NCBI GenBank assembly: GCA_963930775.1
Contig: OZ005689.1
Span: 15,128,923 to 15,192,922 of the forward strand
Source of the DNA: Cliona cf. orientalis
Taxonomy: Eukaryota; Porifera; Demospongiae; Clionaida; Clionaidae
Reading direction: 5' to 3'
Length of the DNA stretch: 64,000 bases
Shown here piece after piece: positions 6,845 to 55,025 of the stretch. Numbering within the stretch: position 1 is the stretch's first letter; each line of letters opens with the position of its first letter. The notes beneath the pieces were generated by a model. The model ran no database searches. It had not been told where the DNA came from and worked only from the letters and a program-made list of their open reading frames with translations. Position numbers and translations under genes: made by a program.

Positions 6845-7507
6845 ATTTCTTAGAGAGCCCAGAGCATGATAATAATAGTATTATTATTGAAAGGTATTCA
6901 TTATCATTATCATGCATATGGCTAAACAAATTGTTGCAGGCCCTTCCTTGCATGTCATTGTGAAGCATACAGCTTTCAATGTCACATGTTAAAAAAGACA
7001 GGGAAGACAAGTTAAAGTGTACCATCTTATAGATCTACCATAAATCTGCAACCAACAATCACTGCGCGTAGTTGAAGATGCCTCAACATTGCCATGCACA
7101 TGTACCTCTTTGTGGGTGGGGCTGGCTTGTAGGGGACGTGTCGGTGGCAATAGCTTGTTTGTGGCTTTTATTGACAGCAAATCGGCGGCAATAGCCATTT
7201 TGTGGCAGTTATTGACACCGATAGTCGGTGTCAATAGCCTTGGCCTATAATCATACTAGATTAATATTCTGCTATTTTGTGTATGCATAATAATACCATG
7301 CAATATAATAATATATTATTATAATTATATTATTATAAACTATACACTAGGTAGCTAGCTAGAAGAAAAACAAAACTTCTGTAGCCTATTATTAGCTAGC
7401 TACAGACAGTGCATGCATGCAGTGTTCCACTGATATATATATAGCTATAGTCTACTGAGTCCAGTCACGAAGTCAGCTGGAATGATAGAATGGGCCCTGA
7501 TTCGCAA
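6845..7507. other. No gene; short tandem repeat near 7138-7235
   Basis: The interval separates two related TIR elements. Within 7138-7235 a unit of about 45 bp containing GTCGGTGGCAATAGC, TCGGCGGCAATAGCC and TAGTCGGTGTCAATAGCC recurs in diverged form. From 7280 to 7350 the sequence is nearly pure A/T. No coding region is supported. Confidence 0.45.
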
Positions 7508-21248: not shown

Positions 21249-23353
21249 GGGATCGACTAAGTTCACCCTGTTTGAAACGGTTACGTCATTGGTCCCACCC
21301 ACTTCACGCGGCGCAGCGCATCGTTGGCCGCCGCTAGTACTTGCACTCTGAACCACCCATATTGAACAGCCATCACCAAAGAAGTCAGAGTTTAGGGAAG
21401 GTTGTGTCTGCTTGTGCCATGGCCTGAAGAAGAAGTAGTAGTACAGCAGGGATGTTCAAGCCTGGAGGAGCTTGGATTGTTTCCATGTAGCAGACCTACT
21501 GCAAAGGTACATGCACTCATTTAGCCTCGTCCCAAGGGCCTGGGGACGAGGCAAGCACTCATTAGCCTCGTACCCAGGCTCAAGAGCTGAGTCATCTTTA
21601 TTAAAATTGATAGTAAAGGTACTTGTAGAGGTGCAGATTCTACAGTGGCAGCTTGCTCTGTTAGTCAGTTGGTCATAAATCAATGGTGAAAATTACTAAT
21701 AACTTAATTAGCTTTGTAGTCCACAAATCTGCAATTGCATATCGACATCAAGCTCTCCCTTGTGTACACATCTTCACTGTACAAAACTATGAAACTTTGA
21801 AGTTATATAGAAACACTAAGTTTATTATACTGATTGGTTTGACTGGTAGTTACATATGTCACTGTGTCAAGGGACTTCCGAAAGGAATGGTATATACCTG
21901 CTATGAAGGATAGGATACCTTGAGCTGCTCTCATCACATGCAAAGGCAACGTGAGTAGCTATGGTACACACGCACGGTAGACCATCAAAATCCAGGTCTG
22001 GAATAACCTTGTACCCAGGTCAATTCACAAGGCTAGGTCTAGAAATACATTGTCCGTAGAAAAGAGAATAATATTATCAGTACATACACACAAATTAAAA
22101 TAATGTAAAAATACAGTTATATAAATAGAAATAGTCACTTTGATGTTCACTCTTTGCCAAATATGTCCTGTACAAAGGGGAAATATTCCTCTATACAATA
22201 CAGAATTTAATTTTGCTTATGGAAGGTGCGTTAAAATTAATTAAAACATTGGAAACTAAGGACAAACATTCTAAATAGCCAATTGCTACATGTACAACAA
22301 TGTATGCACACACACACGTACACATACACATACACAAGTACATACATACAGTGTTATTATCCAGTTACAGAGTACCCAAAGTGGTCAGGAACATGAACCC
22401 GTGTACTTACGTTTTTCATAATGTGGGTACGTTTTCCATAATGCAGCTGGGACCAGAAAGAGGAGTGGGTGTGGCGATTGCCAAGGCTGTGGCTACCGAA
22501 CAACAGGACTGTGGCACCTGCATCAATTGGGAAATTGTGTACTTAAATCTTTGATATATTCAAGTATTAAAGACACCCTATCACCGTTGATTTATGTTCA
22601 ATTAGGCATTCACTTGACTAAGAGAGCAAACTGCTACTGTAGAACCTGCACCTTCACCTTACCTTCACCATTAATTTTAATAAAGGGCTATTACAGATAA
22701 TAGGCGTACACCCCTATGGAGGAAGAGATAGATGTTCATTACCCTAAATACCAATTAAAGTGCAAAAATAACCATCAAGACTAATCAATTTGCTCATTTT
22801 ACCCTATAAAACTAATCAACAATCTCGATTTCACCCTACAAAACTAATAGTAATTCATACCCTGACCAGCTACTCCATCAAATTATACTAATCATTCACT
22901 ACCATGCCCCCTCAATACTTTACTATCTACAATGGTGCCTACAATACCTCATTAAAATCCATAAAAATGCCCTCAATACTTTCCTTAAATCTTGATCCTA
23001 CAATACTAATCAACCTTCCTCCATAGGAGTGTATCCTCATTATCTGGAATAGCCCAAAGATGAGTGCACGTACCAAGTTTGCAGTAGGTCTGCTACATGG
23101 GAACAGTCCAAGCTCCTCCAGGCGTGAACATCCCTGCTGTACTACTACCTCTTCTTCAGGCCATGGCACAAACAGACAGACACAACCTTCCCTAGCTCTA
23201 GCTTTGACTTCTTTGTAGATGGCAAAATTAATTTTGGTAATATGGGTGGTTCAGAGTGCAAGTACTAGCGGCGGCCAACGATGCGCTGCGCCGCGTGAAG
23301 TGGGTGGGACCAATGACGTAACCGTTTCAAACAGGGTGAACTTAGTCGATCCC
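21249..23353. mobile_element. Long-TIR foldback element GGGATCGACTAAG with exact 10-bp TSD
   Basis: The ends GGGATCGACTAAGTTCACCC and GGGTGAACTTAGTCGATCCC begin inverted arms of about 270 bp that include GGTCCCACCCACTTCACGCG and the GCCATGGCCTGAAGAAGAAG-like block. CTTGGTAATA flanks both sides exactly (21239-21248 and 23354-23363). It landed across the right junction of the 20567-21242 element. Its right arm is interrupted by the MITE at 22685-23055. A related 588-bp copy at 45117-45704 also has a 10-bp duplication. The TSD length suits Mutator/FB-like elements (inference). Confidence 0.92.
22685..23055. mobile_element. MITE, GGGCTATTCCAG family, copy 2
   Basis: Inverted ends GGGCTATTACAGATAAT and ATTATCTGGAATAGCCC are flanked by AAA on both sides. 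The body aligns with 10351-10730, including the CCCTAAATACCAATTAAAGT block. It is inserted in the right arm of the 21249-23353 element and so is younger than it. Confidence 0.87.
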
Positions 23354-23363
23354 CTTGGTAATA

Positions 23364-26960: not shown

Positions 26961-27744
26961 CTCAGGTGAATTAAGGACTGGGACCGCGCACGCGCATGCA
27001 ATAATTGGTGGGCGTGGCCAACGTCAGTGGTAAAGCCGGCCAAGAGGACCTCTAACATAGATTCTAAGGCAGAATACGTGGACTATATGTGAAATAGAGT
27101 GTACAAGACGCCAAAATGATCGAAGAAGGCTTCAAACTACGCTGTTTCAGCGGTCTGCTCGATCAGCAACCTGCCTGGTCACGTGATCCTGCCACACCCA
27201 TTCCTGTACAAAGTATAGGCAACCTAGTAGGGTGGCTCGATCGGAGAACAAAGAAGCCCCTGATGCCTCGTTTAACATTTTCTACAGTTTATTTGTACCT
27301 ACCTGAAGTAATCTATCCTTTGGCATTTTTGAAAAATTCGACAAGACGGCCGTGAGGTAAGCTTTTGTAGTTGGGCGGATAGCAAAAAAATCATGATTTA
27401 GGCTATAGCGCCTAAACTAAGGCAGCTTACAAAAAGCACAGGGGCAATATTGTAGATTAGGATGTGTAGATTCTTATGAATGCCCTACCATGATGCTAGC
27501 AAGGGTGCTTGTTCTCCGGATTTTGGCTTTAATGCTGTAATAGTGCACGTACGAGATCAGCCACGCCCTCCAAACTGATGGTGGGCGTGGTTAATTAGTA
27601 AGCGCCTTTGATGTGGTAAAAGATTAACATTCATATGGAGTTTGTTTCATGTCTCTGACATGCTCACAAATGGAGATCTAAGGCCTTGTATACAAGGGAC
27701 TTATCACTGTTTTAGTGCTGGTCCCGGTCCTTAACACACCTGAG
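26961..27744. mobile_element. TIR element CTCAGGTGAATTAAGGAC, TA-flanked
   Basis: CTCAGGTGAATTAAGGACTG at the left is mirrored by CGGTCCTTAACACACCTGAG at the right, with TA outside both ends. Inner blocks with GTGGGCGTGG recur near both ends. The TA duplication suggests a mariner-like mechanism (inference). A 79-codon open frame inside (27116-27355) has no recognisable domain. Confidence 0.72.
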
Positions 27745-44340: not shown

Positions 44341-45116
44341 AATAGTGCGGCATATGAGACGTACACCGACAGTTTGTCTGGAGCAGCCAGAGAGCGTTAC
44401 ATCCTCAGTGCCTTTAAGGACTGTCTCAAGTCTTATCGCGCGCGCCGTACTAACGGCCACTTAGCGTGCATGTTTGTGGCCAATTAAGGTACCATTAAAT
44501 TGCGTGGGCGTGAGGTGGGGGATATGACACCTAAACCACATCAAAGTCATTAGTGAGGTGCATGCTGTGTAACCACGCCCTTTTAATTGCACAGGTCTCA
44601 GGGGTGTGGCTGCTAGAGCCGGAAGTGTTCATTTAATATCCTCCATGGACCGGAAGCCGAGCCGGAAGGGAGGGGCCAGGCCACGCCCAAAACAGCCCCA
44701 CCCTGTTCCCCAAGGACCACCATTCTCAATCAAGTGCCTACTAACCACCGGATGTCCACCGGAAGCCCACAATCAATCCCAATTAAAACACACAGCTTCC
44801 TCAAGGCCAAAACACACACAAACACTTGGAGGCCGTTCTGCCACACCGCCCACACAAGAGCTCACCTCATTTCCTGTGTGGGCGGAGTAACAACACGTCA
44901 TCGCTACCACATCCGCTTCAAACCATCGTCCGCTTCCGTCCAGCCGTACAGGCCCCTCGATCGCACCGCCGTACAGTGCCTCATTAACAGACATGGCCTC
45001 ACCTTTGACCTCCTGCCACGCCCCCAAAGCCTCCTGGACGGGTTCAAAGGTCACCACCGCATCCGGGACACGCCCACCTATCGCCGCAGCCAAGTCCCCG
45101 GCCCCGATGTCCAAGC

Positions 45117-45704
45117 GGGATCGACTAAGTTCACCCTGTTTGAAACGGTTACGTCATTGGTCCCACCCACTTCACGCGGCGCAGCGCATCGTTGGCCGCC
45201 GCTAGTACTTGCACTCTGAACCACCCATAACACCAAAATTAATTTTGTTTGCCATCAACGAAGAAGTCGGAGCTAGAGCTAGGGAAGGTCTGTTTGTGCC
45301 ATGGCCTGAAGAAGAGGTAGTAGTACAGCAGGGATATTCACGCCTGTAGGAGCTTGGATTGTTCCCATGTAGCAGACCTACTGCAAAGGTACGTGCACAT
45401 GGTGCACTCATTTAATAGCCTCGTACCCAGGCTCAAGAGCTGAGTCATCTTTATCAAAATTAATAGTAAAGGTACTTATAGAGGTGCAGATTCTACAGTA
45501 GCAGCTTGCTCTGTTAGTCAGTTGATCATAATTCAATGGTGAAAATTATTAACTTAATTAGCTTTGTAGTCCACAAATCCGCAATTGCATATCGACATCG
45601 AGCTCTCCCTTGTGTACACTTCTTCACTGTACGAAACTGCGCCGCGTGAAGTGGGTGGGACCAATGACGTAACCGTTTCAAACAGGGTGAACTTAGTCGA
45701 TCCC
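45117..45704. mobile_element. Foldback element GGGATCGACTAAG, short copy, proven 10-bp TSD
   Basis: The ends match those of 21249-23353. ATGTCCAAGC flanks both sides (45107-45116 and 45705-45714). The sister repeat at about 50943-50960 has ATGTCCAAGC once, followed directly by ACTGGCCCG. It is thus an unoccupied site confirming both the boundaries and the duplication length. Confidence 0.96.
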
Positions 45705-45828
45705 ATGTCCAAGCACTGGCCCGTGAAGCCACGCCCAATCGGAAGCAATAAAACCTGCAACGAGCATGTGTTGAATAAATATTCCGTACGTACGCGTTAC
45801 TTTCGCGAATCGCGATCAATGAGGGCGG

Positions 45829-45851
45829 AGTATAAAAGGGGGGTGGTCAGG
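45829..45851 (+). promoter_or_regulatory. TATA-box promoter of the Cys-rich transposon gene
   Basis: GTATAAAAGGGGGGTGGTC lies about 230 bp upstream of the ATG at 46063. The same sequence with one change is present in mirror orientation at 49940-49963 before the transposase gene. Confidence 0.6.
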
Positions 45852-46062
45852 CCGGAAGTTCTTGACCATGCGCATAAATATGGCGGATGAATTTCAAATT
45901 CAAAACTAGTCCAGAATGCCCGCGATTCTCTGTCTTTCGAGGCTACACAACACGCAAGCGCAACAGGATCGGACACGCTCTGTTAGCTTAGACACGTGTT
46001 TACTCCAGCCACATGCACACAAACCAGAAGTCCTTCAACCGTCCTGTCACGCTGCCGCTAGT

Positions 46063-46834
46063 ATGGCCTCATCAGCTGACAAGAGAGTGATTACAGTAAG
46101 ATATTCATAGCAGTACTATCATATAACCAAGAACAATAATATAAACATAACACAAAACTACTAAAACTAGGTGAAAGTAGAATATACACACACTCCTCCT
46201 CAAGTTTTTGTATCGCGTGTGAACCGTATGGTCCATGAAAGCCAGCTGCCTGCTTTGACGGTTCAACTGAGATGGGTACGTCTCGAGGAGGATGAGCCAC
46301 CATCCACTGACAATGAGACCCAGCAGCAGGGTAGCACAGGTAGCTACATGTACAAACTCAGTAAAAATATACTCAAATATATGACACTTTAGGTGTTACC
46401 TTTCCGAGTCACCCCGAAGGCTATCGGCAGTCAAGCAGTTGTCCGATTCTTCGTGGCAGGAATAATTGCCCCAACTGTTTGTGTTCCCCTTGCGTCATTG
46501 CGTTGCCCCCTGACTTCCTGCGCGGCGCCTGCGGTCCCCATCCGGCGAATGATGAGAAGCGGTACAGATTGTACAAAGCGTTTTGGAAGTTGCTCAACAC
46601 TCTCGGCGTCTTCCAGGATGAGGAGTACCTCCTGAGAAAGGAGCGGAGAACTCTAAGGGCAGACAAGAGGGAAATAATTCCGAAATGTGTCATTACAGTA
46701 AGCAAGGATTGCACTGTATCAAATAGGTAATATAATGTTTCTGTCTATAGGAAATCAGAAGAAGATATCCTAGCCATGATGGCGAATATAAAGATTATAT
46801 GTCTACTTTCGAAGCTGAAAGTGCACTTGATTAA
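46063..46834 (+). CDS. Cys-rich companion protein of the Kolobok-like transposon
   Basis: Four exons fit canonical sites and phases: 46063-46095, 46171-46339, 46393-46697, 46751-46834, giving 196 residues. An upstream in-frame ATG at 45916 would add 49 residues. The N-terminal half is Pro/Gln-rich (VSRVNRMVHESQLPALTVQL). Exon 3 holds a zinc-binding-like cluster CxxCxCxxC in RNNCPNCLCSPCVIALPP, then a basic helical region (KRYRLYKAFWKLLNTLGVF) and REIIPKCVITEIRRRYP. It converges on the transposase gene. This small protein pattern resembles uncharacterised invertebrate proteins, a recollection rather than a search result. A role as DNA-binding or accessory factor for transposition is inferred from context. 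All frames are intact. Confidence 0.78.
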
Positions 46835-46859
46835 ATTTAAGCAAGAGATATAATTATGG

Positions 46860-47040
46860 TAGTCACCGGGGAAACTGCTGGGGGAGACACACAATAAGAA
46901 TATCATAACACTGTAATGGGGGGGGACACACAATACGAATATCATAGCACGGGGGGGGGGGGGGGGGGGGGGGGCAAAATACGAATATCATAATAATATA
47001 GCACAGGGGGGGGGGGAATACGAATATCATAGCACTATCC
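46860..47040. repeat. Tandem AATACGAATATCATAGCAC units separated by G runs
   Basis: Four related units containing AATAYGAATATCATA alternate with G tracts, one about 24 bases long at 46951-46974, in the space between the two convergent transposon genes. G tracts on this strand may be unstable in length. Confidence 0.8.
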
Positions 47041-47230
47041 TGTGTGGATGAGATCAGCAATACTGTCCTGTGGGCAAGGAGGTCGGTATGGACTCGGTGA
47101 GAAAGTGAGGTCAGTGCACATACATATTACATAAACCTAAACAGCAACAAAAGTATATGCAAGTGGAGCCAGTAACACCATATCAGTCAGTGACATAATA
47201 TTATACATACATGTAGTCTTGTGAAATTGC

Positions 47231-49747
47231 TTAGTCGTCATCCGATTCTGCCTCGGATAAAAGTGTGCCATCGTCAACTTCTCCATCTAGGTCACCAGTC
47301 TCCTCATCTTCAGTCTCCTCATCTTCAATCTCTCTAAAGATAAAAAACAATTTTCACATAATATATAAAGTATAGGATGATGTACGATACATACCTGATG
47401 TCGGGTTTGTTGTCATCAACATATGCTGTCCACACAAGCTCAACAAACTTGAACGTCTTCTCCACTAGGACCTTCATAGGTGTACGCCTGTCTGGTCGTC
47501 GAAGGTCTTTCACCTTGTGTACACTGGTATGAGTGCGATTCACATTCTCATTCTGCATAATTTACAACGATATAGATATAAAGATACAAACAGCATAAAT
47601 CATGCATCTGACCCAGTCCATCACTGCGAGGTTCATTCTTATATTGAACACCCTGGTGGAAAAGTGAATCCGCTTCGGTAAGTATGTGAGCAGCTGGTGG
47701 TTGAAACTCTCCACCCAGTAAGTGTCGCGACACTGTATACATGTAATATAAGCTAAATATTGCAAGAGGACTGACTGTGAAAACCATACATACCCGACAG
47801 AAGTCATCGGCATAGCGGTACACGTAGGTGTCCTTCAAACCTTTGAGCAGTGCCTGACATGCTTGAGGGTTAGTGAGCTTCAGCCTACTGGGAATGTATC
47901 CAGGATCATGACATGACGAACTTGGATGGCAGTCAGAGTGGATTCCCTGTAAGTAAATATATATACGTGAACAGCTTCCATATTGTATGACGTAGGACGA
48001 ACGACTGCTAATACCATATAATGGTTGGGTATGTTGAGAATGAGCTTGCGGAGAGCATCTGAACATCCACCACAGTTTTTCATGGCCCAGTAGAGATGAA
48101 TTTTAATACTTCTTCCTGAAAAAGTACACTACATTATCCACATAACTACACAGTACATACAAGTGGCATACGTTTATCCGTAAGCTCAGTAAACCATGTC
48201 ACATCACGATCTCTTACTCTGCCCTTGGTGATTTTGGCGAGCTCCTTGGCAACATTCTTGGTTCCTACACACAATGGTGTAGTCGCATCAATTCAAATAT
48301 AAAGTATACCATCCATTTCGTACCATGCCATGTGTCAAAGGAGTTGAGGAGCTTGAGATCTTGCTTCACATAGCGTCCAACAGCAAGCTGCATATCATGT
48401 GCAATCTCAACGATTTTCAAACCTGGATGGACATACACAAATTTTATACACATACACACAACACATTATAGTATACATCACATTGTATATAACCTACCTC
48501 GAGCAATGACTTGGGGCACAACTACCTTAGTGCATTCAAGTTCACGAGTTTGGGCCACATGATGTTCACTTCGCGAAATGGTAGAAATGCCAACAATCTT
48601 CATGGTACTGTATGTACATAGGGTACAATAGAAACAATTAGTATTGTCAATGAAAAGCATTGTCACCTTCCAGAAAGGCAAGGCACAGTGGTGTGGTAGG
48701 CATTAGCAGTTGAGTCATGTCTGGCGTCAGTGATGACCCACTGTGAACATAGAACATCACTCATTTGTATACATGTACATGTACGTTTATACAAACCTCT
48801 CCCTTTGTTACATAGTCTGGGAGGGTCTCCATCTCTTCCACTGCTTTCTTCATGAATTGCTCGGCCAAACGATCCACTATGCCAATGTACCCACGGCGAT
48901 TGTATACTGAAATGTTATTGAATTCTTGAAATAAACCAGTGTATATGCATGACAATTACCTTGTCTGATGTAGCCATGTCCAACACTGCCCATGCCTGAA
49001 AACTTGGAAAAGTTGATGTACTGAGTAGGCAACACACCAGCGCAAGTGAAACCATGAACCAACCTACAACAACACAAACGGTAATAAAACCACTCTACTC
49101 GACACTAAAATTTACTTCTGATTAGCTAAGTAGAGCCCACTGAGTACTCTTGAACTTGACCATGTCCTCCTTTGCCGATGGCAACGGCGGCAAGAGAACA
49201 GCACACGCAACACATGACCTTTCTATGGGACAAGAAGATCATGACAAACAGCTTGCTATACTTGACGCTACAATATTGTAACCTGTTTGATAGACTCCAC
49301 AGCCCATGGCTTTATTGTCAGCCCACAGGGACATGGGGAGCAGAGTCCTTCAACCAGGTCAGAAAAACAGCACTCTTCGGTCACAAACAATGCTTGGTCT
49401 TCCTGGTGCTCATCACTTACATACACTCCTATGTGATGCATACACACTTGAACATAGCTATCATATATAGTCTGCACATACTCAGCCTTACCACTGTTTC
49501 GTAGAAAGCTCCTTGTTTCCACGCGCTCATTACCCGGGGAATTGTCCTGTGGTCTCGCATTCCGTTCTACCGCATCCAACAAGGCGCATAACACACCGTG
49601 ATTGTCTAGAGTGGGGGCTCCTACGGGTTGTAGGAGCTTGCAAACGGCCTCAAATCGACGCTCAAAGGCTTCCTTCTCCCGGTAAGTCGAGAAAGTCGCT
49701 TGTAGAGTGAAGCGATGACGCTTTCGGGAGGAATTAGAACTCGACAT
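47231..49747 (-). CDS. Kolobok-like DDE transposase, 13 exons, intact
   Basis: Exons, from the 5' end: 49283-49747, 49116-49222, 48960-49063, 48797-48906, 48667-48740, 48498-48607, 48324-48422, 48172-48264, 48015-48115, 47794-47946, 47613-47732, 47395-47552, 47231-47333. All junctions are GT-AG, all phases match, and introns are 52-75 bp. The total is 1797 nt, 598 aa. The N-terminus is basic (SSRKRHRF). Residues about 135-180 hold a Cys cluster (CSPCPCG, SCRRCHRQ). The catalytic triad is readable as D267 (WVITDARHDS), D353 (SFDTWHGTKN) and E480 (YWVESFNHQLL). D-x-WH-xxK and E-x-F-x(6)-PK spacing resemble Kolobok-type transposases. The C-terminus is very acidic (EDEETEDEETG). Exon 1 contains a possible 45-bp optional intron (CAA|GTGTGT to CACCAG). 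Family assignment is by motif memory only. Confidence 0.85.
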
Positions 49748-49939
49748 AATATCACAGATCAGCTTCGAAACAAATAATATGCGAACACGTGCTATTTGGA
49801 GCGCTCTTGCTTTTATTCGCGTTTTTGACGGTTGTTAGTGTGTGTCTATGGGTGTAAAAGTGCGAGAACGGTCACTTGGCAGAAGGCAGCCATTTTGTAA
49901 GTTCAAAATTTTAGCGAATGACATTTTTGGCCTGACCAC

Positions 49940-49963
49940 GCCCCTTTTATACGGCGCATGCTC
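49940..49963 (-). promoter_or_regulatory. TATA-box promoter of the transposase gene
   Basis: The minus strand reads GTATAAAAGGGGCGTGGTC, about 200 bp upstream of the ATG at 49747, preceded by AACGAGCATG. Both features recur in mirror image before the companion gene (45764 and 45829). Confidence 0.6.
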
Positions 49964-50295
49964 GTTTAACGCACACGCACACACTCCACACAGTGCCAGG
50001 AACACGCCCACATGCTTAATTAGGCCTAATTGGCTTTTTTTTTTTTTGTCGTTGCGGTTAATAGTTAAGCAAGAATGCTTTGATCTTGCTTTGATGTGGG
50101 CAATTACCGGCCTTTTCTTCAGGGGCCACTTCCGGTCGCTAATTACACGCGCATAATCATCCCTGGCCGATTCTGGACACGCCCACCTTCGACCAAAAGC
50201 ACTCGTATGGCCTCTTCGGCCACGCCCCTTCACGATTCGCTAATTGAATTAGCCATTCCTGACGCTCACGCCCACGCAATTAAATGGTACCTTAA

Positions 50296-50319
50296 GGTAC
50301 CATTAAATTGCGTGGTACC
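50296..50319. mobile_element. 24-bp transposon end relic between two TTAA sites
   Basis: GGTACCATTAAATTGCGTGG plus four bases, closing on GGTACC, lies between TTAA (50292-50295) and TTAA (50320-50323). It keeps only the terminal repeat of the neighbouring transposons and has GGTACC at both ends. Confidence 0.85.
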
Positions 50320-50323
50320 TTAA

Positions 50324-51752
50324 GGTACCATTAAATTGCGTGGGCGTGAGGTGGGGGATATGACACCTAAACCACATCAAAGTCATTAGTGAGGTGCATG
50401 TTGTGTAACCACGCCCTTTTAATTGCACAGGTCTCAGGGGTGTGGCTGCTAGAGCCGGAAGTGTTCATTTAATATCCTCCATGGACCGGAAGCCGAGCCG
50501 GAAGGGAGGGGCCAGGCCACGCCCAAAACAGCTCCACCCTGTTCCCCAAGGACCACCATTCTCAATCAAGTGCCTACTAACCACCGGATGTCCACCGGAA
50601 GCCCACAATCAATCCCAATTAAAACACACAGCTTCCTCAAGGCCAAAACACACACAAACACTTGGAGGCCGTTCTGCCACACCGCCCACACAAGAGCTCA
50701 CCTCATTTCCTGTGTGGGCGGAGTAACAACACGTCATCGCAACCACATCCGCTTCAAACCATCGTCAGCTTCCGTCCAGCCGTACAGGCCCCTCGATCGC
50801 ACCGCCGTACAGTGCCTCATTAACAGACATGGCCTCACCTTTGACCTCCTGCCACGCCCCCAAAGCCTCCTGGACGGGTTCAAAGGTCACCACCGCATCC
50901 GGGACACGCCCGCCTATCGCCGCAGCCAAGTCCCCGGCCCCGATGTCCAAGCACTGGCCCGTGAAGCCACGCCCAATCGGAAGCAATAAAACCTGCATTA
51001 ACGCACACGCACACACTCCACACAGTGCCAGGAACACGCCCACATGCTTAATTAGGCCTAATTGGCTTTTTTTTTTTTTTTTTTTCAAGGAGACCAGAAC
51101 ACTAAGCAGAAAAAAAAATTGTCCAAAACCACCACATAGTTGAGCTGGACGCTTAGTAGAGCCATACAATGCAAGCAGGCACCCTATACTCCAATTTTGA
51201 CCAAAATAGGTAAAGGTCGTCACGTTTGTGTGCGCGTGCCTAACTGGGATTCCCCGTTTTTCACGTAGCGCGTGGGCGGAAAACATTGCAAACTCATGGC
51301 TTCCCTATACAAACATATGGGAAAACTTCAAAGGGCCGTAACTTCAATTCAAAGGCGTGAATCAAAATTCTTTCAGGTCAAATCTCTAGTTTCGATCCAT
51401 TCTGCGTGCCCATGTAAAAATTATGTCCCCAAGTACTCCCAAACCCCCCATGAATTAGATTATTTATTTAATTATTTAAATTCTTTTTTTTTCTCTTAGT
51501 GTTTTAATGTCGTTGCGGTTAATAGTTAAGCAAGAATGCTTTGATCTTGCTTTGATGTGGGCAATTACCGGCCTTTTCTTCAGGGGCCACTTCCGTTCGC
51601 TAATTACACGCGCATAATCATCCCTGGCCGATTCTGGACACGCCCACCTTCGACCAAAAGCACTCGTATGGCCTCTTCGGCCACGCCCCTTCACGATTCG
51701 CTAATTGAATTAGCCATTCCTGACGCTCACGCCCACGCAATTAAATGGTACC
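50324..51752. mobile_element. Gene-less deletion derivative of the TTAA transposon
   Basis: Its left 674 bp (50324-50997) matches 44488-45763 minus the foldback insertion. Its right part (50998-51752) matches 49968-50291, with an extra insertion at 51086-51508. Both promoters and genes are missing. It is flanked by TTAA at 50320-50323 and 51753-51756 and ends with the same GGTACC termini. Only scattered base changes separate it from the autonomous copy. It is a candidate non-autonomous partner that could be moved by the transposase encoded next door. Confidence 0.92.
51086..51508. mobile_element. Insertion with AACACTAAG..CTTAGTGTT inverted ends
   Basis: It is absent from the matching position of the autonomous copy (after the T run near 50048). 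Inner inverted ends GAACACTAAGCAGAAAAAAA and TTTTTTTCTCTTAGTGTTTT are visible. It sits directly after a T run. No gene is recognised inside. Confidence 0.75.
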
Positions 51753-52851: not shown

Positions 52852-54346
52852 CAGGCGCTGTCATATGACTTCACCATGGCAACAGATTCCGAGCATGCGC
52901 ATTATATCAGACACACCCAATCGTTAATGCGCCGTACACACCCACTATTACGTAACTGTCGAGATAACGCCAAACTAGCGTGCCACTGCACTGCGCGCTA
53001 CAAAATAGAGTGGATTTATATGAGAACTAAGGTGAGAGGTTCAGACAGTCTTGAGTCAGCCCTGGAAATGAGAAAGAAAAAAGAAAGAAAGGAAAAAATG
53101 AGAAATGGCCATTTTTTTGAACATCTGGTTCTGGCATGTACAATTGATTTGATAAATGATCTTGGTCTTGTTAAATACACTTAGAGATTTCACAAAATTA
53201 TTTATTTTGAGATATTTGGGTATTTTTAATGTATTACATATATGGCATATCCGGGCCATCCCTGCTTATAGTCTACTGACTCTATGATATAGCACTTTTT
53301 TTTTTCGAGGAATGCAACTTTTATGGATAGGTGACAATTACTTTTATTATAAAATTATTATAAAAATTAATATGCAGGATTAATCTTCATGGCTACACTA
53401 GTTGATTGCTAAATTTCTCACTATACAGATACAAACATGGGAAATGCCCGTGAACCCCTCTCCCGACGTTCATCTTGCCCCGACATGTGTTTCCCAACGT
53501 GTGAACTCCTCTCCTGACAAAGTAGGTTTTCATGTAGGTCCTATATACAGCTAATTACACACCACAAAATCAACAATATTAATTAGTACATAATTATTAA
53601 AGAGTTCGGAAGTGCCTGATCAGTGTACTTCTGAAAGCGGCATTTGTTTCTAGGGATCTTATTGCATTAGGAAGGGTATTGAACATAAGGGAACCTTGAA
53701 ATCAAATGAGTTTCTATAGTAGTTTATGTTACTAGGTCTTTTATGTGAAGTTTGTTTGCTCCCCTTGTACTGCTATAACCAAAATTTGAATTTGTCACAA
53801 TTTTTTTTATTTAGCTAAATAAAATCGGGCACATCTGTGGAGGCATCTATGAACTTGGAGTAGGATAGCATTTTGCCTTCTAATCTTCAGTGTGCCAGCA
53901 CCTCTCCAGTCGTCAACTAGCTAGCCGCCATCGTGACCAAGTCATAAGTGTCCAGACTTTCAGGGATATTCTGATGCATGGATCTAAACTGTCTGCTACT
54001 CCTAAACATCATGAAAGCGATTCTGCTCCACAACAACACTGTAAAACTGTATGATAGAACAGAAATTAAAATAGCTAATACGCGATAGCCCTGTCAACAA
54101 TGTGTATACATGTAGCCTCGTTCCAAGGCCACTCCCATGTGTGTTGAAAAAGATCGGGGACGAGGCTAGATGTCATGACATTCTTAGTCTGGTGCCCAGG
54201 AGGGGCTGGGCACGATTAAAATGTAATAGCTAGTTTTTATAAGGCCAACCTAGGAATGTCAATCAACAAGCGCCGTGCGCATGCGCTTTTGTACATTCAC
54301 CTATACGAGTGGGCGTGGCGCGCTAGATCTCAAGAGTTTATTAAAG
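52852..54346. other. No gene recognised; one small TIR relic
   Basis: An open frame at 52876-53184 lacks domains and splice support. A 56-bp TAGCCTCGTTCC..GGGGACGAGGCTA relic lies at 54113-54168. TCTCAAGAGT just before the ATG at 54347 is part of the death-domain gene leader. Confidence 0.35.
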
Positions 54347-54701
54347 ATGTCCGAAAACATTTCAACTGACGAAGTCTGTCGTCTCCTCGAGGCGCTCGAT
54401 ATCGATGAGTGGGAGGAGGTGGCACTACACCTCGGTCTCTCAGATAAGACCATTCGGGAGATTCGCGAGCTTTCTGGCGGAAACAGCTTGCGTAGAGAGG
54501 CCATGGTGACCAAGTGGGTTCAGCGTGAGTATCTGGAACCAAGCTGGAGCAAGCTAGAGGAGGCGCTGGTTCGTGCCAACCAAGATCCTAATGCCACCAA
54601 GATAGGGGTCGCTAGATCGCGCACTCCTACAAATCCAGCGATTACCGCCGCCGCCACCTCGGACGACCTAAAGGAAGCGAACGATCATGACAGTGAAAAA
54701 G
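54347..54701 (+). CDS. Death-domain protein, first coding exon
   Basis: The ATG at 54347 (MSENISTDEV) opens a 118-codon exon with a death-fold: VCRLLEALDIDEWEEVALHL, GLSDKTIREI, a W-containing helix (AMVTKWVQRE) and SWSKLEEALVRAN, the helix order of a death domain. A Thr/Ala/Pro-rich acidic linker follows. The exon ends AAAAAG|GTATTG in phase 1. Unspliced reading would run into the MITE that starts 12 bp later and stop at 54736. The acceptors at 63442 and 63758 are also phase 1, so a second death domain at the window edge may belong to the same gene. Death domains act in apoptotic and innate immune scaffolds. Confidence 0.8.
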
Positions 54702-54713
54702 GTATTGAGTTTA

Positions 54714-55025
54714 GGCCACTATTGGTTGAAGATTAGTTTCTCATCCCCCGCCCGCATGGAATTTTGCCCCCGCTTCAATCTCGTCATTATGCCATTATAT
54801 GCTACTACGCATGTGCAGATCTGCCTCGCGAGCTATCTGACCACGCTAGTATTGCTTCTTTGTGTGTGCATTTTGTTATTTTAAGGATCAAGAAGTGTTT
54901 ACGTAACACATTTCCTGGAATGCACTAATGTAATTAAATAATGGCATAATGGTAATGTACCGCCCGCCCGTATACAATTCTGGGAAAGTCCCTGATGAGA
55001 AACTACTATTCAACAAATAGTGGCC
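54714..55025. mobile_element. GGCC-ended MITE, ATTAGTTTCTC family, copy 3, TTA TSD
   Basis: GGCCACTATTGGTTGAAGAT and TATTCAACAAATAGTGGCC are inverse ends, with TTA at 54711-54713 and 55026-55028. It lies 12 bp after the death-domain exon donor site, so its insertion just spared the splice site. Confidence 0.88.

Follow-up and report, generated by a model that had tools for sequence, protein, structure and literature searches.

A nested two-gene transposon of the sponge Cliona cf. orientalis with a Kolobok-like transposase and a companion probably related, distantly, to the P2X7 ballast domain

A 64,000-nucleotide stretch of the Cliona cf. orientalis genome (contig OZ005689.1; hereafter the window) carries a two-gene transposon that appears to be a divergent, Kolobok-like variant of a known pairing between a transposase and a ballast-type protein, and that resembles the Kol0 lineage of Kolobok. 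In the reading that we consider the most probable, it is a cut-and-paste transposon of Kolobok type, divergent from Kol0 and nested in another TTAA-flanked element, with the companion protein acting as a cofactor. All copy and pairing counts given below come from this one genome (GCA_963930775.1).

Results

Ends, copies and nesting of the two-gene transposon

An earlier note on this DNA, made from the sequence alone, had taken positions 44488..50291 for one intact transposon with exact TTAA flanks. These flanks are present, and together with inverted ends of 27–31 bp at 44488 and 50291 they speak for a single 5.8-kb element. The ends of the two-gene transposon, however, lie further inward: comparison of genome copies placed it at 45760..49965 (4,206 bp, ends ACGAG...CTCGT, with 9-bp inverted ends ACGAGCATG and CATGCTCGT), because 17/17 copies with both ends read showed the order TTAA-ACGAGCATG...CGT-TTAA. 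Of the 18 other copies, L015, whose right end lacks its last 7 bases, was left out; one of the 17 reads GCACGT for GCTCGT at its right end. The window copy itself has lost the left TTAA (CTGCA-ACGAG) and retains the right one (49966..49969). The inner left segment matched 18 other genomic places. In 17 of them the match begins at query position 1272, which is window position 45759, and in the remaining one at 1266; at no place does it continue into the outer left segment, 44488–45116.

The stretch 44488..50291 is made up of a 1,010-bp outer TTAA-flanked element with ends GGTACC...GGTACC, which is interrupted twice. One insertion is the two-gene transposon; the other measures 588 bp (45117..45704), has perfect inverted ends of 68 bp and shows the 10-bp duplication ATGTCCAAGC. 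The uninterrupted length was measured in 2 of the 5 outer-element copies read, the remaining three having no match to the exact right-end pattern; the left TTAA was seen in 5/5. The empty site, CTGCATTAAC, was found in all five and in a second copy within the window at 50988, and the two-gene transposon appears, from these sequences, to have inserted into an internal TTAA of the outer element. Positions 1–629 of the outer left segment recur in at least 21 other places, with 40 of 1528 candidates scored. At locus L013, a reverse outer-type copy lies within about 1 kb of a copy of the two-gene element.

With genome copies ending at the inner ACGAG/CTCGT (17/17 read) and the outer element uninterrupted elsewhere (5/5 copies read and the second window copy), we rejected the single 5.8-kb element, to which we give almost no credence. 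For the 18 other copies, 44488–50291 is refuted as the unit that transposed; a one-time move of the whole unit via its outer ends could have taken place.

Searches with both the left and the right end gave a family size of 19 copies. The left-end search, in which all candidates were scored, returned 23 matches, 19 of them full-length (201 bases, 98–100%) and four partial (78–83%), and the right-end search returned 20, corresponding to the same 19 copies with one match split in two. Aligned pieces were 97.0–99.8% identical to the window copy, apart from one that reached 91.4%. Given this identity, the open frames and the ends shared among copies, we read the family as young and recently active. 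The junction TTAA-ACGAG also occurred in four of six relatives examined (L028, L029, L030 and L098; chance expectation 0.25 in 32,906 bases) and was not found in the other two, L031 and L099. A strict end-plus-TATA pattern search was uninformative, its pattern misfitting the window element's own end too.

Just inside the ends lie two inverted 29-nt arms, 90% complementary and both containing TATAAAAGGGG (left, 45825..45853, plus strand; right, 49929..49957, minus strand), each holding TATAAAA. The mirror-image promoters of the earlier note thus exist as sequence, with a putative promoter role. In relative L029, a TATAAAAGGGG-like sequence adjoins the right end.

The window had no Rfam match at gathering scores. 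It does hold a match to the Death domain (33 bits, cut-off 22.6), which points to animal DNA, whereas a fibronectin type III match fell under its cut-off. A search for relatives in viral contigs gave 62 pattern stretches, none confirmed, and none were found in PHROGs.

The transposase gene

The DDE transposase gene occupies 47231..49747 on the minus strand, and the model proposed earlier (598 aa, 13 exons, GT-AG junctions, open frame) was reproduced exactly. One of its exons was probably misread: relative L029 carries two stops in the counterpart of a 63-nt in-frame stretch of exon 1, so this stretch is probably an intron, giving 14 exons and 577 aa. Among the catalytic residues named earlier, D267/D353/E480, the first and last were retained, whereas D353 sits in DTWH, a DxxH signature. 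D333 (in AHD), kept in three of the four relatives compared (L028, L029 and L030, with L031 lacking coverage there), is the more likely second catalytic aspartate, and the likely catalytic set would comprise D267, D333 and E480, plus D353xxH356. An H/C cluster, HSDCH...SSSC (424–432), recurs in modified form in the relatives when read by eye; Kojima and Bao (2022, PMC9587614) describe a zinc finger located between the DxxH signature and the final E in all Kolobok lineages except Kolobok1.

Pfam Mutator matched the transposase at 27 bits (cut-off 26.5). A piggyBac domain was absent among the Pfam matches listed for it (up to E 5, and up to 0.1 in a second scan), and a piggyBac identity was not supported. 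A PDB sequence search with the transposase gave no useful match.

The companion gene and its likeness to ballast proteins

The companion gene lies on the plus strand at 46063..46834 (exons 46063–46095, 46171–46339, 46393–46697 and 46751–46834, stop included) and encodes 196 aa, or 245 aa from an alternative upstream start at 45916. Here, too, the earlier four-exon model with GT-AG junctions and an open frame was recovered without change. Five companion families share 40–66% identity with the window protein. A scripted splice search yielded exon 4 for L028 and L032 only, and the others were read by eye.

Several comparisons suggest that the companion is of KolX or ballast type and a distant relative of the inner P2X7 tail. 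Pfam P2RX7_C matched the companion at 21.3 and 22.3 bits, below its cut-off of 23.5, and 5/5 companion families gave matches with E values no higher than 1, the best being 7.4e-5. When profiles were compared, the companion matched this genome's canonical ballast proteins with a probability of 95.4 over 29 columns. Among positions described as conserved or GDP-binding by Rump et al. (2020, PMC7016195), R546, Y550, Y/F553, P570, C572, R578, F/Y581 and P582 are kept in 5/5 families, the two blocks having been aligned by eye. At position 568 four families have I or V and one has L, A549 is replaced by L in all five, and H547 and R574 are not kept in the five families compared. Four cysteines, arranged as C-x2-C-x4-C and P-x-C, are invariant in 12 companion sequences, and the protein is probably zinc-binding.

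The canonical ballast proteins of Cliona cf. orientalis match P2X7 in PDB (E 1.1e-19). In six regions read, out of 32 P2RX7_C matches, ORFs at L065, L066, L067, L069 and L070 look like pieces of canonical Kolobok transposases, for example GDGRMDSPGF in L065 and TDRHKQINKWLR...DVWHVAKG in L070. A Pfam scan of two of these ORFs gave no match. The window transposase matched weakly in L065, L066, L068 and L070 (E 0.001 to 3e-6), with no match in L067 or L069. Such a neighbourhood fits the view of Kojima and Bao (PMC9587614), who regard ballast proteins as frequent companions of Kolobok.

The companion could instead be an unrelated small zinc-cluster protein whose ballast likeness is convergent, a reading that would agree with the P2RX7_C score under the Pfam cut-off, the failure of PDB sequence searches with the companion to find P2X7, the different N-terminal cysteine patterns (CxxCxxxxC vs CxCxxC...CC in canonical ballast proteins) and the roughly 16 additional residues between the two conserved blocks. 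We consider it very unlikely, as it is opposed by the equal spacing of the conserved positions in 5/5 families, by the profile–profile result and by the Kolobok-looking ORFs that also adjoin this genome's canonical ballast genes.

Pairing and constraint

Companion exon 3 was present in 19/19 family copies. Intact frames and splice sites were found for the companion in 15 copies, for the transposase (13-exon model) in 12 and for both in 10. The earlier note had named mobile copies lacking the companion as evidence that would count against its pairing; searches with the ends and exon 3 revealed no companion-less or end-only copy in the 19-copy family.

In the wider lineage, where the transposase was searched with exons 12–13, a transposase lay within 6 kb of 63/71 companion loci (61 convergent, 2 divergent), and of 44/52 once the 19-copy family was set aside. 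The partner was missing within 6 kb at 8/71 companion loci and 7/71 transposase entries. Second pieces of a locus already counted were removed from this tally (31 of the 102 rows for the companion and 57 of the 128 for the transposase); two of the 71 transposase entries still represent one locus. The earlier note had also named the companion occurring as an ordinary host gene outside TTAA ends as evidence against its reading; the eight companion loci without a transposase match could in principle include such a gene. One of these eight, L099, was read and had no transposase in 5.5 kb. As for the seven companion-less transposase entries, two are the L066 and L068 regions, which hold a canonical ballast ORF, L098 does contain companion pieces on reading, and four were counted from the tally alone.

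Companion and transposase distances were correlated (r = 0.83 across 23 elements and 0.61 across 10 representatives; 0 of 5000 permutations each), as expected if the two proteins stay together, although physical linkage alone would give the same result. Between families, companion exon 3 had pN of 0.23–0.41 and pS of 0.74–0.91 in 10/10 pairs, with dS saturated in 9/10, a pattern that points to constraint on the companion at this level. Within the family, there were 7 synonymous and 11 non-synonymous changes in the companion (ratio 0.45; 15 copies) and 6 and 17 in the transposase (ratio 0.80; 9 copies), too few for strong constraint to be visible. Judged from these sequences, the pair is a lasting association, and the earlier idea of a Kolobok-like, TTAA-targeting transposase with a conserved Cys-rich partner holds in 19/19 family copies and 63/71 wider loci.

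Discussion

Role of the companion

In the mechanism that we favour, the DDE transposase, bound to the ACGAG ends, would cut the element out and integrate it at a TTAA site, and matching TATA promoters at both ends would drive the two genes. The convergent companion gene would give a small, probably zinc-binding protein of KolX or P2X7-ballast type, serving as a transposase cofactor either in the DNA-bound complex or by recognising subterminal or TTAA DNA. Insertion at TTAA and a conserved partnership are shown by the genomic copies themselves; that the companion contacts the transposase, and is needed for movement, we infer.

This last point leaves room for the companion to be a regulator or anti-silencing protector outside the transposition machinery, with the mirrored promoters or some host process as its target, and retained for raising the persistence of the element. 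We regard this as a tentative alternative, on the unlikely side. The similar subterminal promoter-like arms of both genes would suit it, none of the present observations demonstrates contact with the transposase, and PMC9587614 and PMC7016195 report that ballast proteins such as P2X7 and Nanor have uses on the host side. Against it, co-divergence with the transposase fits a direct partner, although linkage alone would also produce co-divergence.

The window element extends the transposase-plus-ballast pairing beyond the canonical seven-cysteine KolX and shows that it persists despite deep divergence of the companion (40–66% identity to the window protein in five families). The young family, with its 10 copies in which both frames are open, offers a natural comparison for the role of KolX in transposition, which bears on the origin of the P2X7 tail. 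More broadly, KolX-type proteins could be partners of TTAA-specific DNA transposons in general, with the P2X7 tail as a retired cofactor and the four-cysteine form as the minimal core. We think this unlikely; it is suggested by the C-terminal ballast block accompanying Kol0, the window lineage and, in Kojima and Bao's account, some piggyBac elements. If it were true, the ballast block might serve to recognise or process TTAA DNA, or act at the step in which this DNA is joined.

Comparison with known systems

The earlier note's proposal of an undescribed two-component system does not stand: Kojima and Bao (2022, PMC9587614) already report that the Kol0 lineage of Kolobok encodes a transposase and KolX, a protein with the P2X7 ballast fold. 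Among the papers listed by our literature search (30 of 99), KolX occurred in that one, and the window lineage may already be listed in Repbase or in the supplementary files of that paper. Like Kol0, the window element has TTAA duplications (4 bp, in 17/17 copies read), two proteins, a DxxH-bearing DDE transposase and a ballast-related companion, whose P2RX7_C score lies under the cut-off. A further source on Kolobok is reportedly Kapitonov and Jurka (2007), cited by Kojima and Bao.

Kojima and Bao (PMC9587614) give Kolobok termini as 5'-RR ... YY-3' and seven conserved zinc-binding cysteines for KolX and ballast proteins, whereas the window element ends in AC...GT and its companions have four invariant cysteines in 12 sequences. 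On account of these terminal dinucleotide and cysteine features, we call the element Kolobok-like and not a strict Kol0 member. Its transposase also differs from those beside the canonical ballast genes of the same genome, the best similarity across the six regions read being weak (E 3e-6).

The companion resembles the P2X7 ballast and the stand-alone ZCD/Nanor proteins, as described by Rump et al. (2020, PMC7016195), in the eight positions kept in 5/5 families. It differs from the P2X7 ballast in having L for A549, neither H547 nor R574, fewer cysteines and a longer gap between blocks, and in being encoded by a transposon. A few piggyBac families, according to PMC9587614, carry a KolX-like C-terminal part without most of the seven cysteines; compared by description, the window element shares with them a C-terminally KolX-like protein, reduced cysteines and TTAA duplications. 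Unlike piggyBac, its transposase matches Pfam Mutator and had no piggyBac domain among the matches listed.

Outer-type elements and their use as target sites

The outer element enclosing the two-gene Kolobok-like transposon is immediately followed by a second outer-type element (window 50292-51752), and the junction of the two is formed by GGTACCATTAAATTGCGTGGTACC, a short palindromic repeat flanked by TTAA on both sides. Approximately 420 bp within this second element (window 51080-51501) had no match. Another genomic copy of the two-gene element (L026) occupies the TTAA at one end of an outer-type element, with a left flank reading ...CACGCAATTAAATGGTACCTTAA, and the outer elements therefore supply target sites.

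Companion orientation and canonical ballast ORFs

At two loci of the same genome, L047 (C1:23262785) and L048 (C10:3050284), the companion gene was divergent from the transposase, in contrast to the 61 convergent loci.

Among the regions with P2RX7_C matches, canonical ballast ORFs were read in L066 (3652-4692, 347 aa) and L067 (2623-3465, 281 aa), both carrying additional cysteine-rich stretches N-terminal to the ballast domain; the former also gave a weak, below-cut-off match to CSRNP_N. A third such region, L070, contains an ORF that appears THAP-domain-like by eye (7103-7501); a Kolobok-looking ORF lies nearby, as does a short ballast match.

Other features of the window

A Death-domain ORF was detected at 54254-54733 (domain match of 33 bits). 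A further TTAAACGAG is present on the minus strand (27267-27275), its count being about that expected by chance.

Inside the first outer element lies a 588-bp element (45117-45704) whose perfect inverted ends are each 68 bp long and which shows a 10-bp duplication; stretches at 21249-21788 and 23064-23358 are related to it. Its long inverted ends, together with the 10-bp duplication, suggest a Mutator-like element.
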